A stretch of 37,243 bases of DNA from Granulosicoccaceae bacterium. Its GTDB lineage: Bacteria > Pseudomonadota > Gammaproteobacteria > Granulosicoccales > Granulosicoccaceae. Below are positions 43-12,511 of the stretch, in pieces (within the stretch, counting starts at the first letter, position 1; each line of letters opens with the position of its first letter). The position numbers were made by a program, and so were the translations under genes. The notes beneath the pieces were generated by a model that saw only the letters and a program-made list of their open reading frames with translations, was not told the origin of the DNA and ran no database searches. Where the stretch lies: NCBI GenBank assembly GCA_020629835.1, contig JAHDCO010000039.1:1-37243 (forward strand). Direction: 5' to 3'.

Positions 43-81
43 ACGCCCCCGAAAAAAAAATGTATTTTTTTTCGGGGGCGT
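43..81. repeat. Perfect 17-bp inverted repeat (long hairpin)
   Basis: The arms at 43-59 and 65-81 are exact reverse complements, each with a GC-rich outer part (ACGCCCCCG) and an inner run of eight A or T; the loop is five bases. In a normal intrinsic terminator the T run follows the GC stem, but here the A/T part lies at the loop end, so it does not look like a standard terminator in either direction. It could be a cruciform or the end of an upstream transcript. Its last base is the first base of the candidate sigma promoter at 81. Confidence 0.75.
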
Positions 82-107
82 GTCGAAATTCTGAATTGGG
101 GGGCGTC
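81..107 (+). promoter_or_regulatory. Candidate ECF42-type promoter
   Basis: TGTCGA at 81-86 is followed after 17 bases by CGTC at 104-107. From memory, the signature reported for ECF42 sigma factors is TGTCGA at -35 and CGA/TC at -10. The site lies 37 bases upstream of the MAPEG start and heads a run of three co-directional genes ending in an ECF42-like sigma factor gene, so positive autoregulation is plausible. The match is seen; its use is inferred. Confidence 0.5.
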
Positions 108-143
108 CTTGGGGTAAGTCAACAACTAAAAAGGTACTTACTC

Positions 144-536
144 ATGACATTCACCGTCACTCCAATTTACGCCCTCGCCGTTTCTGTCATCTACTTGGCC
201 CTGTGGTTCCGGGTTACCGCCATGCGAGGTGCCAAAGGCACATCCATCGGTGATGACAACGATCCCGCTTTGCTGCAGCGCATTCGCCAACACGGCAACT
301 GCGCCGAGTGGTGCTCTTTTCTACTCATCCTGATGATTCTTGCTGAAGGCATGGGGGCACCGGCTCTGTACATCCACATCACCGGCGTTCTGCTGGTTAT
401 CGGACGAGTTGCCCACCCATTCGGTCTCAAAATCGACAACGCAGGTCATCCAGCACGCTATGTCGGTAACGGCACTAATCTATTGGCCTCACTCAACATT
501 CTAATATGTCTAGCCGTGAACATCGTCGGTCTATAA
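144..536 (+). CDS. MAPEG family membrane protein
   Basis: This is a 130-residue integral membrane protein with about four hydrophobic segments (roughly residues 5-23, 58-72, 74-90 and 112-130), the size and topology of bacterial MAPEG proteins (relatives of microsomal glutathione S-transferase). The family hallmark is visible after the first segment as RIRQHGNCAEW at residues 46-56, matching the R-x-x-x-N-x-x-E pattern. The frame is open upstream to base 60, but the ATG at 144 is preferred: it has AAAAGGT about nine bases upstream and begins the hydrophobic N-terminus. It is followed by the DGPF and sigma factor genes on the same strand. Family members conjugate glutathione or reduce lipid peroxides; the substrate here is unknown. 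Confidence 0.85.
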   Translation: MTFTVTPIYALAVSVIYLALWFRVTAMRGAKGTSIGDDNDPALLQRIRQHGNCAEWCSFLLILMILAEGMGAPALYIHITGVLLVIGRVAHPFGLKIDNAGHPARYVGNGTNLLASLNILICLAVNIVGL

Positions 537-544
537 CGAATTTC

Positions 545-587
545 AAAGCAGTCAGCGATACCGACTTTGTCATCGCTGATTTGCTTT
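545..587 (+). other. Interrupted hairpin between the MAPEG and DGPF genes
   Basis: AAAGCA (545-550) plus TCAGCGAT (552-559) pair with ATCGCTGA (572-579) plus TGCTTT (582-587), with small bulges and a 12-base loop. It could be a weak terminator or attenuator after the MAPEG gene, as only a short T-rich tail follows. If it terminates, the downstream sigma operon would need its own promoter, which I do not see clearly. Confidence 0.45.
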
Positions 588-657
588 CAAGCAGTGAAAG
601 CAGTAAACACATAAGCAAACCCACGTAATACCTCCATACTGAAAAGGAACATTGACC

Positions 658-1017
658 ATGAAATACATGCTTTTAATTTACAACAACCCTTCCGAGCAAC
701 CTGAGTACGGCACACCTGAATTCGACAGCATGATGGCTGACTACTTCGCAGCGAATGAACAAATGAAGGAAGCCGGTGTTATTCGCGAAGGGGAAGGTTT
801 ACAAGGAATAGAAACCGCAACGTCGCTACGTATTAAGTCGGACAAAGTTGAAACCATGGATGGCCCGTTCGCTGAAACGCGTGAACACCTCGGTGGCTAC
901 TACGTTATCGATGTGCCCGACTTAGATACCGCTTTGAAGTACGCGGCACTGATTCCATCAGCAAAATTTGGCACTATCGAAGTCCGCCCATTGATGGATT
1001 ACAACCCGGCAGATTAA
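658..1017 (+). CDS. DGPF-type YCII-related protein
   Basis: This is a 119-residue soluble protein of the YCII-like ferredoxin fold. It opens with the typical MKYMLLIY strand and carries the DGPF motif at residues 68-71, followed by AETREHLGGYYVIDV. DGPF proteins are the near-universal genomic partners and usual targets of ECF42 sigma factors; their biochemical role is not established. The ATG at 658 is chosen over a TTG six bases earlier because AAGGA lies at a good distance from it. The sigma factor gene follows 22 bases later, which supports a functional pair. Confidence 0.9.
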   Translation: MKYMLLIYNNPSEQPEYGTPEFDSMMADYFAANEQMKEAGVIREGEGLQGIETATSLRIKSDKVETMDGPFAETREHLGGYYVIDVPDLDTALKYAALIPSAKFGTIEVRPLMDYNPAD

Positions 1018-1039
1018 ACGCTGCCAGGTTAACCACTTT

Positions 1040-2272
1040 ATGAAAGACGCCGCCCCAAGAGCCATTGCGGTAAACAAAGCCGTAGCCGACATCCTTGCGC
1101 AAGACCAGGGTCGGCTATTGGCTGGCCTTATCGCCAAACTTGGTGATTTTGAGCTCGCTGAGGATGCCTTGCAAGAAGCAGCAATTTCGGCGCTCAGTCA
1201 CTGGGGACGATCAGGTATACCGAAATCTCCAACGGCCTGGTTAATTAAAGTGGCCCACAACAAAGCCATCGACAGGATACGAAATAACATGCGCGAGGAT
1301 AGAAAAGCTAACGAGTTAGCGATCATTGCTGAATATGAAAGCACTGACTACACGTCGTTAGAAACCATACCGGATGAACGCTTGCGGTTGATTTTTACCT
1401 GCTGCCACCCAGCGCTTGAAGATAAATCACGAGTTGCATTAACGCTACGAACGGTCTGCAACTTAACCACAACTGAGATTGCACGTGCGTTTTTAGATGC
1501 TGACACAACCATGGGGCAGCGTTTGTCCCGTGCGAAAGCCAAAATCAAATCCAAAGGCATCAGTTTTACGGTCCCCGGTCCTGAGCTTTGGCCCGAAAGG
1601 CTGAGCACGGTTTTATCTACGCTTTATCTTATTTTTACCACGGGTTACGTGAATGAAGACAACACCACCAGAGACCTATGCAAGGAAGCGCTATTCCTGG
1701 TTCAACTACTTCAACAACTGCGCCCTGATGACCCGGAAATTGAAGGTGCTTACGCCTTGATGTTATTAACTGAAGCAAGGCGACCGGCTCGCATCAATGC
1801 GTCCGGAGCCAGCGAGCCGATCGAATCTCAAGATCGATCTCGGTGGCACAACGAGATGGTGGTAAACGGCCAAGCCATTTTGGAAGCCGCCGTCCTGAAA
1901 CGACAACCCGGGCCATTTCAAATCAAGGCGGCGATTGCCGACTGTCATATGCATGTCGGTGGCCCGGACTGGCCGCAAATAGCCTTGTTGTATCAATCGC
2001 TGTGGCGTTATGAGCCAACCGCAGTCGTCGCGTTAAACTGGTCTGTTGTGATGGCCGAGATGGGACAAGTTCAAGCGGCATTGACGAAAGTGGAAAGCCT
2101 TGCTGAAGAACTTGGTGAGTTTCAACCCTGGTATGCAGTTCGAGCAAGTCTGTTAGCAAAACTCGACCGACACGATGACGCAGCTGAAGCCTACAACTTA
2201 GCTATAGAAAAAGCGCCAACAGATGCCAGTCGATTGTTTCTAGAAAAAAGACTAAGTCAGATTGAAAAGTAG
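1040..2272 (+). CDS. ECF42-type RNA polymerase sigma factor with C-terminal TPR-like extension
   Basis: This is a 410-residue sigma factor, about twice the size of ordinary ECF sigmas. Sigma region 2 lies at about residues 18-83 (core LAEDALQEAAISALSHW, then AWLIKVAHNKAIDRIRN) and region 4 at about 112-170 (LRLIFTCCHPAL, then a helix-turn-helix reading TTTEIARAFLDADTTMGQRL). Residues 185-410 form the helical extension found in ECF42, ending in TPR-like repeats (about 325-405). No anti-sigma gene is next to it, as is usual for this group, where the extension is thought to control activity. The partner DGPF gene lies just upstream and a matching promoter motif is at 81-107. Confidence 0.9.
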   Translation: MKDAAPRAIAVNKAVADILAQDQGRLLAGLIAKLGDFELAEDALQEAAISALSHWGRSGIPKSPTAWLIKVAHNKAIDRIRNNMREDRKANELAIIAEYESTDYTSLETIPDERLRLIFTCCHPALEDKSRVALTLRTVCNLTTTEIARAFLDADTTMGQRLSRAKAKIKSKGISFTVPGPELWPERLSTVLSTLYLIFTTGYVNEDNTTRDLCKEALFLVQLLQQLRPDDPEIEGAYALMLLTEARRPARINASGASEPIESQDRSRWHNEMVVNGQAILEAAVLKRQPGPFQIKAAIADCHMHVGGPDWPQIALLYQSLWRYEPTAVVALNWSVVMAEMGQVQAALTKVESLAEELGEFQPWYAVRASLLAKLDRHDDAAEAYNLAIEKAPTDASRLFLEKRLSQIEK

Positions 2273-2349: not shown

Positions 2350-3354
2350 TCATTCAATACCTCTAGCTTGAAGAAAACGCCGTGTGGTTTCAGCAATTAC
2401 TGCTCCTTGCTCTTCCAGCGGAAAATGCCCTGTGTCAAGTAGCAGTAACTCAAAATCCTCCACATCCTTTCCGAAAGCTTCCGCCCCCTCGACAGTAAAA
2501 AAAGCATCATTCTTGCCCCAAGTAACTAAAACTGGCGGTTGGTATTCACGCAAATAGTGTTGCCAAATTGGATACGCTTCTACGTTATTCCGATAATCAT
2601 AAAATAAGTCAAGGTGCATATCATGCTGACCAGGTCGCTGCATTCTTTCGACATCCAATAGCCAGTTATCGGGCAAGATAGACTCAGGATTACGAGTTCC
2701 ATGTGTGTATTGCCACTGCAATGCCGGCGCACTGAATGCATTGGCAATTATTTGCTCTTCCAAACCCGGTGTGCGGTTTTGCCACAACTGTATTAAAGGC
2801 GCCGAGGCATTAGGGTCAATCCCCTCCTCATAAGCGTTACCATTTTGCACCAGCAAGGCATCCACACGATCTGGGTGTTGAGTTGCAATTCGAAATCCAA
2901 CGGGCGCACCATAGTCATGCAGAACGAGTGTGTAGCTTTCCAAGCCCCGTTGCTCAAGAAACGCGTTAATCAATTTGGATAAATTGTCAAATGTATATTC
3001 AAATTCACTACTAGGCGGAAAATCACTCGCACCAAACCCAGGATAATCGGGAGCGATGACATGATACGCATCGCTTAGATCTCGCATCAGATTGCGGTAC
3101 TGATGAGAAGAACTGGGGAACCCATGCAACATGACGATTGTTGGGCCCGATGACACACCGGCCTCTCGATAGAAGATTCTATGTCCGTCCACTAATTCGT
3201 AGCCGTAAGACATTGATTCCGCCATCGCCGAAGAAAAGAATATTAGTGAGAACGTACATCCAATCAATGTTCGGCGCACAAACGAGTTTGGCGTTCTAGT
3301 GTGTTTCTTTATCGTTCTACCCAAAGCATTAATTGCTTCGATTTCAATGGTCAT
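2350..3354 (-). CDS. Exported alpha/beta hydrolase (haloalkane dehalogenase / epoxide hydrolase-like)
   Basis: A 334-residue protein. Residues about 25-45 form a signal peptide (basic FVRR, then LIGCTFSLIFFSSAMA), so it probably acts in the periplasm. The fold motifs are HGFPSSSHQYR at 77-87 (oxyanion hole), HDYGAP at 146-151 with Asp147 as nucleophile, GKND with Asp283, and DTGHFP with His310. An Asp nucleophile in HD[YW]G fits dehalogenase or epoxide hydrolase-like members rather than serine esterases; the substrate is not predictable. The ATG at 3354 has TTGGAG upstream and directly precedes the signal peptide; the open frame further upstream (to 3438) is probably untranslated. It is divergent from the LysR gene, its likely regulator. 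Confidence 0.85.
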   Translation of the reverse strand: MTIEIEAINALGRTIKKHTRTPNSFVRRTLIGCTFSLIFFSSAMAESMSYGYELVDGHRIFYREAGVSSGPTIVMLHGFPSSSHQYRNLMRDLSDAYHVIAPDYPGFGASDFPPSSEFEYTFDNLSKLINAFLEQRGLESYTLVLHDYGAPVGFRIATQHPDRVDALLVQNGNAYEEGIDPNASAPLIQLWQNRTPGLEEQIIANAFSAPALQWQYTHGTRNPESILPDNWLLDVERMQRPGQHDMHLDLFYDYRNNVEAYPIWQHYLREYQPPVLVTWGKNDAFFTVEGAEAFGKDVEDFELLLLDTGHFPLEEQGAVIAETTRRFLQARGIE

Positions 3355-3453
3355 AGTTTGAACTCCAATGCGTGTAAAAGTTAGCGTATGGCTCGCTTGC
3401 TTTGTTGATGCGAGTTGGGATAATCTTATTGTTTGCAAAAAACACTTTCAAAT

Positions 3454-3466
3454 GAACATATTGTTC
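3454..3466. promoter_or_regulatory. Dyad between the hydrolase and lysR genes
   Basis: GAACATATTGTTC is a 5-bp dyad with a three-base centre, in the 125-bp divergent gap and 14 bases before the lysR start. Size and position fit a LysR-type operator that would repress lysR and control the hydrolase. Binding is inferred. Confidence 0.4.
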
Positions 3467-3479
3467 GTATTTACTTACA

Positions 3480-4388
3480 ATGCAAAGAAATCAACTTAGC
3501 GATATAGCTATCTTTGTCGAGGTAGCGCGACACGGTGGATTCAGAGCTGCTGCCCAACGAATGAATCTTGGGCCTGGGTCTGTGAGTGATGCAATCCAAC
3601 GTTTTGAGGATCGGTTGGGTGTGCGCCTTTTTGAACGGACCACCAGACGAATATCACTTACGGCGACAGGAGAGCTCTTATACAGCCGCTCAGTTGCTGC
3701 GATTGACGAACTGGACAATGCCGTACGCACACTCAACGATGAGAAAGACGAAGTAACTGGCATTCTTAAAATCAATGCACCTAGAAATACAGGTTCATTG
3801 TTTTTAAACGATCTTGTTACTCGATATTTAAAAGCTAATCCGCTGGTTCAAGTTGAAGTCAATTATGACGATGCGAAGATTGACTTGGTCAGCTCACAAA
3901 TCGATGCCGTGGTAAGGCCCATGACGTTAGTAGAGAACGACTCTCACGCCTTACCATTGGGACCGGAACTGGAAATGTCTGTTGTGGCATCACGTTCGTA
4001 TCTCAATCGATGTGGCGTTCCGCCCTCCCCTGAATCATTGACTGAGCACGATTGCATATGTTTTGCCTTTAATGGTGTTGGCACTTTAGCACCTTGGACT
4101 TTCATCGGCAAAAATGGCCCTTACACCGTTGCTACCAAACCGCGAGTTGTCGTGAATGATATACCCTCCATGTTGAAATACGTGCAGTCGGGACTGGGTG
4201 TAGCTTACGTATACACCTGCGAAATAGAGTCACTTGTAGCCTCAAAGAGGCTCGTTTCAATCTTACAGGGCAAGCCCGCTCCTCTACAGCGCTACAGCAT
4301 CAACTATTTAACCAAGCGTCATATGCCATCACGATTGCGCGCATTCCTTGATCTTGCCAAGGCAGGCGATTCTAGAACCAAGAGTTAA
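3480..4388 (+). CDS. LysR-type transcriptional regulator
   Basis: A 302-residue protein with the N-terminal winged helix-turn-helix at about residues 4-62 (FVEVARHGGFRAAAQRMN, then SVSDAIQRFEDRLGVRLFERTTR) and a periplasmic-binding-like effector domain at about 90-290. It belongs to the broad group of LysR proteins that regulate a divergent neighbouring gene, here the exported hydrolase. The ATG at 3480 has no clear ribosome binding site, but the protein starts at the usual point for the family. The inducer cannot be predicted. Confidence 0.92.
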   Translation: MQRNQLSDIAIFVEVARHGGFRAAAQRMNLGPGSVSDAIQRFEDRLGVRLFERTTRRISLTATGELLYSRSVAAIDELDNAVRTLNDEKDEVTGILKINAPRNTGSLFLNDLVTRYLKANPLVQVEVNYDDAKIDLVSSQIDAVVRPMTLVENDSHALPLGPELEMSVVASRSYLNRCGVPPSPESLTEHDCICFAFNGVGTLAPWTFIGKNGPYTVATKPRVVVNDIPSMLKYVQSGLGVAYVYTCEIESLVASKRLVSILQGKPAPLQRYSINYLTKRHMPSRLRAFLDLAKAGDSRTKS

Positions 4389-7677: not shown

Positions 7678-7773
7678 GCGGATGCAATACGGGTGTAACG
7701 CGGATGCAATACGGGTGTAACGCGGTTGCAATACGGGTGTATTGCAACCGCATTACATCCGTATTGCAACCGC
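7678..7773. repeat. Cluster of 22-bp repeats, three direct and one inverted, plus a half unit
   Basis: Identical 22-bp units at 7678-7699 and 7700-7721 share the core GATGCAATACGGGTGTAAC. A third unit with three changes lies at 7722-7743, an inverted half unit at 7739-7751 and a full inverted unit at 7752-7773. The third unit and the half unit form a perfect 13-bp hairpin (arms 7722-7734 and 7739-7751, loop GGGT). The cluster lies between the gcvP stop and the outer membrane protein gene, both on the minus strand. It could be a row of protein-binding sites in that gene's promoter or an RNA hairpin at the 3' end of the gcv transcript; there is no T run for a normal terminator. Confidence 0.85.
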
Positions 7774-7787
7774 GCAGTTACCAGCCG

Positions 7788-12291: not shown

Positions 12292-12489
12292 CTCTGTCCT
12301 GAAACCTGAGAGATTCAAATGCAGACTTAGCGCGGTTACCCGTTACGCATCGCCTGATTCTTTCCCCTTGGGCGGGTGCCGCGCTGGGCACCACTCTCCA
12401 GAGATGACTCGATTTTGGTGGTCCTGGGTACCTGAGCGTTTCCGAGCAGTTGCGCCTTCGGTGCCGGCGTTTAGCCGAACTCTCCCACC
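12292..12489 (-). ncRNA. Tandem glycine riboswitch
   Basis: Two aptamers are read on the minus strand. Aptamer 1 spans 12489-12417, closed by GGTGG/CCACC, with GGGAGAGT, then GCCGGCACCGAAGGCGCAA, and CGCTCAGGTACCCAGGAC. Aptamer 2 spans 12403-12292, closed by CTCTG/CAGAG, with GGAGAGTGG, the GGCACCCGCCCAAGGGG block and TCTCAGGTTTCAGGACAG. The linker is 13 bases. This is the established two-aptamer glycine sensor found ahead of gcv operons, where glycine normally switches expression on. The reported open frames on both strands across it are not genes. Confidence 0.95.
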
Positions 12490-12511
12490 AATCAATTACG
12501 TCATGTCTAGG

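Follow-up and report, generated by a model that had tools for sequence, protein, structure and literature searches.

The DNA analysed here (the window) is a complete contig of 37,243 bases from a Granulosicoccaceae bacterium (GCA_020629835.1, JAHDCO010000039.1; contig 76 of a 149-contig assembly), which begins with a three-gene operon whose upstream side is cut at base 1. The genes encode a MAPEG family membrane protein of 130 amino acids with four helices (144..536, +; assigned from Pfam and a predicted structure), a YCII/DGPF protein of 119 amino acids with the DGPF motif TMDGPFAETREHLGG (658..1017, +; Pfam and motif), and an ECF42-type sigma factor of 410 amino acids with a DUF6596 and TPR-like C-terminal extension (1040..2272, +; Pfam, tree and model). 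An initial annotation placed TGTCGA-N17-CGTC at 81-107, ahead of these genes on one strand, and the motif is indeed there: TGTCGAAATTCTGAATTGGGGGGCGTC occupies 81-107 (+) with a spacer of 17 nucleotides (nt), and all three genes follow it on the same strand. ECF42 promoters bear a TGTCGA/CG[AT]C signature, with examples of the TGTCG...CG[AT]C kind in S. meliloti; a target promoter of the kind expected of ECF42 precedes the operon. The -35 element TGTCGAAAT (81..89, +) was delimited by pattern match and comparison with relatives, and the -10 element with discriminator, CGTCCTTGG (104..112, +), by comparison with relatives and with the promoter of S. meliloti RpoE10. An ATG at 60 was set aside as the MAPEG start; that at 144 was preferred, which lies 63 nt past the motif start, the distance being 60-63 nt in six orthologues.

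Each protein carries the hallmarks of its family. The MAPEG product matches PF01124 (57.7 bits, cut-off 23.4), and its model (predicted local distance difference test score, pLDDT, 96.4) has helices at residues 6-31, 41-69, 74-94 and 103-128. Its best PDB matches by Foldseek are LTC4 synthase, then MGST2 and mPGES-1; for the first two, template modelling (TM) scores are about 0.7 and the probability is 1.00. With these proteins and E. coli YecN it shares the four-helix fold and the R-x-H-x-N-x-x-E/D and GRxxH...R residues, the first of which can be compared with human MAPEG active sites. Unlike known MAPEG proteins, it has no solved relative that could be found by sequence, and no other copy in the related genomes exceeds 36% identity to it. 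Residues R48, H50, G51, N52, E68, G87, R88, H91, R105 and G108 are invariant in 34 MAPEG orthologues and, except for H50 and G51, stay so in a wider set that includes a further orthologue and four other MAPEG proteins. The YCII protein matches PF03795 (66.7 bits, cut-off 24) and resembles PA1349 (1s7i). The sigma core is recognized by Sigma70_r2 (PF04542, 39.9 bits) and Sigma70_r4_2 (PF08281, 27.8 bits), both above cut-off, and the extension by DUF6596 (103.7 bits), with TPR_2 at 24.5 bits falling below its cut-off of 27. The sigma model is mostly helical (mean pLDDT 85), with more confidence in the C-terminal extension, from about residue 211, and the sigma profile matches TPR proteins such as OGT as whole-sequence matches only. 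An ECF core, an extension of about 200 residues with TPR-type helices, and an adjacent YCII/DGPF gene are all ECF42 traits.

Taken alone, the motif is at chance level in the window (1 match versus 0.68 expected; 48 of 100 shuffles reach that count). The genome scan that the initial annotation had suggested was uninformative in its loose form, since TGTCGA-N15-18-CGWC is not enriched across the whole genome of the organism (74 matches versus 95 for the reversed control); refined forms of the pattern, described below, were informative. Considered together with its relatives, the motif is, by comparative evidence, far beyond chance. Close MAPEG orthologues (65-73% identity) occur in 6 of 56 other related genomes, the remaining MAPEG copies reaching 36% at most, and all seven loci, including that in the window, have MAPEG, then YCII, then an ECF42-type sigma gene, with TGT[CA]GAAA-N15-CGTCCT 60-63 nt before the MAPEG start. 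Searching the GTDB species-genome collection with the aligned MAPEG proteins of the window and its relatives yielded 49 MAPEG loci from Granulosicoccaceae, many Alphaproteobacteria, Variovorax and one Leptospiraceae bin. Six of these (L066, L076, L084, L085, L089, L090) coincide with loci L037-L042 of the relatives, and the two sets are counted separately. Gene order and orientation are MAPEG-YCII-sigma in 47 of the 49 loci, the exceptions being L088 and L104; the sigma match reaches, or nearly reaches, a contig end in L062 and L073, covers the first half only in L068, and is in two pieces in L107.

The motif, with a spacer of 16-18 nt, lies 60-69 nt upstream of MAPEG in 45 of the 49 loci, L104 among them. 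Its absence from related ECF42/MAPEG loci, which the initial annotation had named as a refuting outcome, therefore did not occur, and the position is nearly fixed. The spacing of the scan pattern suggested there (N16/18) is better given as 17 nt, which 44 loci have; L105 alone has 18. The N17 form is present within 120 nt upstream in 44 of 49 MAPEG loci versus 0.0018 expected per 120-nt region, a background taken from 11 N17 matches in 735,564 strand-bases of the rest of the same loci. This background is, if anything, overstated because at least two of the 11 matches, the TGTCGG sites of L069 beside another YCII-ECF42 pair, resemble genuine promoters of that other ECF42. Over 990 pairs of 45 sites, identity averages 0.27 in the flank and 0.35 in the spacer, close to random, so recent common descent does not explain the motif. 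In the four loci without the motif, L099 has one mismatch per box, L100 has CGATCA at -10, L106 (Leptospiraceae) has only a clear -35 half, and L088 has nothing. Local variations on the operon also occur: two tandem YCII genes separate MAPEG from sigma in L091 (861-1574) and L102 (4420-5133), and a gap of about 460 nt separates YCII from sigma in the otherwise standard operon of L200 (1034-1498). A Rhizobium plasmid carries a MAPEG gene with 44% identity to that of the window (L161, 3001-3393; neighbours unannotated in the table).

Alignment of 44 sites refines the promoter to an A/T tract, TGTCGAAAW, 14 nt and CGTCCTWGGGGTAT, or TGTCGAAAW-N14-CGTCCTWGG overall. Beyond the loose motif this adds AAAW after the -35 element, CTWGG after CGTC, and the upstream A/T tract. 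Because the N17 patterns prescribe TGT[CA]G and CG[TA]C, the conservation seen there reflects row selection; AAAW, CTWGG and the A/T tract are unaffected. The tract, 9-18 nt before the -35 element, is 90% A+T versus a 45% background, and runs of at least eight A/T occur in 32 of 44 tracts versus 32 of 1,606 background windows. It probably acts like an UP element. In the window, the A/T tract is the core of a perfect 17-bp inverted repeat found by repeat search (43..81, no strand assigned; arms 43-59/65-81, A8/T8 core, loop 5), which ends on the first base of the -35 element and has its T-rich half at the position of the relatives' tract. The long repeat is not conserved in relatives (judged by eye over 30 upstream bases); the A/T tract alone is kept. 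As an intrinsic terminator the repeat was rejected because its T run lies within the stem rather than after it. Downstream, a transcript start is expected near 116: among the TGTCGG-N17-CGTC promoters described for S. meliloti RpoE10 (ECF42) in PMC6180224, one continues CTTGGAATg, and its lower-case base is provisionally taken as the start.

The refined promoter is rare within genomes. Of 37 carrier genomes searched, 27 contain strict TGTMGAAA-N15-CGTCCT at a single place, in every case the MAPEG operon; the control gave three matches in all (L108 was left out, and coordinates were matched to loci by hand). Across 57 related genomes, that of the window included, the strict form occurs in ten (control, 7 matches); seven sites are at MAPEG operons, two inside reading frames (L143, L145) and one intergenic (L141). 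A longer form with one mismatch allowed gave 26 sites in 23 chosen genomes, 21 at operons and five elsewhere, with five in the control; all five off-operon near-sites are within open frames of at least 420 amino acids, and in G064 and G076 the promoter of the operon itself departs too far from this form to appear among the sites. In the organism's own genome, a slightly looser form finds two sites, that of the operon and one inside a 226-amino-acid open frame (control, 0). A third form that allows TGTCGG finds seven sites in 17 chosen genomes (control, 0), of which five are MAPEG operons; the remaining two, both TGTCGG, come from Rhizobiaceae-type genomes, that of L151 lying next to a different ECF42 gene, and resemble sites used by the other ECF42 type. 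Within the genomes searched, no regulon beyond the operon can be detected by sequence; weak or divergent sites may exist. With one strict site in most carriers and off-operon near-sites equal to the control (5 versus 5), the operon is most likely the only strong target of its sigma factor, and MAPEG the first product. This amends the initial annotation: the unit looks like the sole strong target.

In a first tree of 73 sigma proteins, 47 MAPEG-linked sequences form one clade (support 100/100), which is partly a sampling effect as most rows were found via MAPEG. A sigma-first search (E of 1e-90 or better) of 295 genomes from the family of G059, the Tritonibacter mobilis genome of L064, found a match in 33 genomes and returned loci for 30, six of which (those of G058, G059, G072, G074, G075, G084) were already among the 49. 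MAPEG lies beside the sigma gene in 18 of these 30 loci, and the exact N17 motif occurs in 24, including 17 of the 18 with MAPEG. In the enlarged tree (95 rows), MAPEG linkage needs nine changes, at least five of them required by well-supported branches, and a single origin of the linkage was dropped because loci found by sigma similarity raised the changes to this number. A 43-row clade around the window is entirely MAPEG-linked. Both trees leave out sigma proteins that are shorter than 300 amino acids, have internal stops or are near-duplicates, and the enlarged tree also drops L181 and L182; promoter class could not be typed there for 16 of the 35 'none' rows, 5 of the 59 MAPEG rows or any of the three edge rows. 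The residues that distinguish sigma factors of the MAPEG branch from those of the YCII-only branch do not reveal one clear promoter-reading residue.

YCII-only ECF42 operons mostly show a related but different promoter, TGTCGATTT...CGTCT. Of 20 such operons with 150 nt upstream, 12 have an exact N17 site and eight have none; one of the 12 (L069) is TGTCGG and the other 11 have TGT[CA]GA followed by T or AT, never AA, ten of them with CGTCT. Five sigma records have neither YCII nor MAPEG that could be found nearby. YCII-only operons of the same wider sigma clade (L198, L202, L208) keep the AAA...CGTCC promoter before YCII, which suggests that the promoter goes with the sigma factor and that MAPEG is a frequent cargo, sometimes lost or gained. 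Natural variants provide further cases. In L141 (1480-1720), a perfect promoter and leader precede what remains of the first part of a broken MAPEG gene (read by eye); neither a DUF6596 sigma gene nor the rest of the operon was found in this same-genus genome, which is 87% complete. In L088, the 3' end of MAPEG is truncated, the motif is absent and no sigma gene adjoins it; the genome has another DUF6596 sigma gene elsewhere. L104 has MAPEG behind a TGTCGATTT-N14-CGTCT promoter with no sigma gene found beside it, and the sole DUF6596 sigma gene found in that genome lies behind YCII with TGTAGATTT...CGTCT. This one case suggests a switch of promoter class.

Judged against described systems, the unit is a variant of the known ECF42 kind, in which both promoter and operon are conserved and, by sequence, each genome has one strong target. 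With the systems described in PMC6180224 (S. meliloti RpoE10) and PMC8999054 (S. venezuelae ECF42, P. putida ECF-10), the shared features are sigma2/sigma4 with a long TPR-type extension, a YCII/DGPF gene just upstream, and a TGTCG-N17-CGTC promoter. Unlike those systems, MAPEG is the first gene here, the -35 element is TGTCGAAAW rather than TGTCGG, an A/T tract is present, and the promoter lies ahead of the whole operon; the strict promoter is found a single time in most carrier genomes searched, whereas six genes rose on overexpression of RpoE10, its own operon apparently not among them (PMC6180224). There are also likenesses to ECF41 proteins (S. meliloti RpoE9; R. sphaeroides), which according to PMC6180224 have a fused C-terminal domain, their own small operon as sole target and, for RpoE9, a CGTC -10 element. 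In S. meliloti, ECF41 targets a carboxymuconolactone decarboxylase gene (PMC6180224), in contrast to MAPEG and YCII here, and ECF41 extensions are SnoaL-like (SigJ; PMC8103513) rather than DUF6596/TPR. No link between MAPEG and an ECF sigma factor was found in the literature searched; the 2021 ECF reclassification may list such a neighbourhood. The word 'MAPEG' is absent, by word search, from PMC8999054 and PMC6180224, which mention ECF42, and from the DUF6596 paper PMC11119718.

These comparisons very probably describe a self-contained, self-activating sigma switch, in which the ECF42-type sigma factor reads one strong promoter and transcribes MAPEG, YCII and its own gene. The product of 1040-2272 would recognize the promoter at 81-112, and transcription of its own gene would amplify activation by positive feedback. 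Gating would probably act via the long DUF6596/TPR extension rather than an anti-sigma factor; no anti-sigma gene was seen among the genes examined up to 5117, with the upstream side cut by the contig end. The likely output would be a membrane glutathione-dependent enzyme (MAPEG) and YCII acting on a reactive or lipophilic toxic compound; a stress or detoxification role is a guess from the MAPEG fold. Several observations weigh against this reading. MAPEG is missing by 12 of the 30 similar sigma genes, three of them at contig edges. Ten of the 37 carrier genomes have no strict site and carry a locus with a divergent promoter (e.g., L069, L072, L082, L086, L099-L101, L103), and three full operons (L099, L100, L106) have degenerate sites only. 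The promoter-class rule is broken by L195, L211, L212 and L213, which combine AAA with CGTCT, and by L216, a MAPEG locus with the ATT/T promoter type. Foldseek E-values to MAPEG structures are just above 0.001 (best 1.1e-3). Moreover, RpoE10 overexpression did not raise the YCII gene heading its own operon (PMC6180224), so autoactivation is not universal in ECF42.

Other explanations are compatible with parts of the evidence. Another sigma factor, such as a different ECF42 or an ECF41 protein, could read the promoter and leave the local sigma factor a passenger with targets elsewhere, as the CGTC -10 element of ECF41 promoters, the similar motif at sister ECF42 proteins in related genomes and L104, where a different ECF42 located behind YCII may drive MAPEG, would permit. 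This is quite unlikely given that promoter type tracks the clade of the adjacent sigma factor: AAA/C is found in 43 of 54 typed MAPEG-linked sites (five more are untyped), and AAA in none of 11 typed sites of sister YCII-only operons. In Ensifer adhaerens, two ECF42 units lie less than 5 kb apart (L069, 1026-6004); the MAPEG unit is accompanied by TGTCGAAAT and the other by TGTCGG sites. MAPEG could instead be a sensor rather than an output, a membrane protein that binds a signal and relays it to the TPR extension; its first place in the operon, strong conservation and membrane location, the lack of an anti-sigma gene among the genes examined up to 5117, and the view in PMC8999054 that ECF42 extensions act via protein contacts agree with such a role. 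It is nevertheless unlikely, since similar sigma genes occur without MAPEG, L104 has MAPEG under the other promoter class without its sigma gene, and residues conserved across MAPEG proteins generally are retained, as for an enzyme. A combination of the two roles is unlikely but can be entertained tentatively: MAPEG would be a glutathione-dependent enzyme whose substrate, product or loading state signals to the DUF6596/TPR extension, and the operon would be an anti-sigma-free homeostat for a lipophilic toxic compound. A motif matched by chance, ahead of three genes that are mere neighbours, would fit its frequency in the window alone and the unenriched loose pattern; this reading is highly implausible, being contradicted by gene order, motif position, background rate, the single strict site, control-level near-sites and flank identity.

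The proposed self-activating switch matters because the signal and products of ECF42 are poorly known, and for one branch the promoter is now defined, one strong target is predicted and the first product belongs to a recognizable enzyme class. The many carrier species include named cultured ones (Ensifer adhaerens, Tritonibacter mobilis, Ahrensia kielensis, Sulfitobacter dubius and Maritalea porphyrae), and direct tests become feasible of the signal, the output and how ECF42 paralogues in one cell tell their promoters apart; the two units of Ensifer adhaerens L069 are a natural pair for promoter insulation studies. The operon also occurs on a Tritonibacter mobilis plasmid, adjoining polysaccharide genes (L160, 5004-7027). 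In this plasmid record the sigma gene is annotated merely as a DUF6596 protein, so such units can be overlooked.

Downstream neighbours of the sigma gene in the window encode, by Pfam, an alpha/beta hydrolase, a LysR regulator and a DUF4440/SnoaL-like protein. The hydrolase gene is divergent from that of the LysR regulator (2350-4388, directly past the operon), and its best NCBIfam matches are haloalkane dehalogenases, below cut-off. Further along the window, about three tandem copies of a unit of about 22 nt lead into a 36-nt inverted repeat (92%, loop 4) at 7686-7774, between two minus-strand open frames, and a glycine riboswitch aptamer lies at 12409-12497 (-) with a score of 60 bits.

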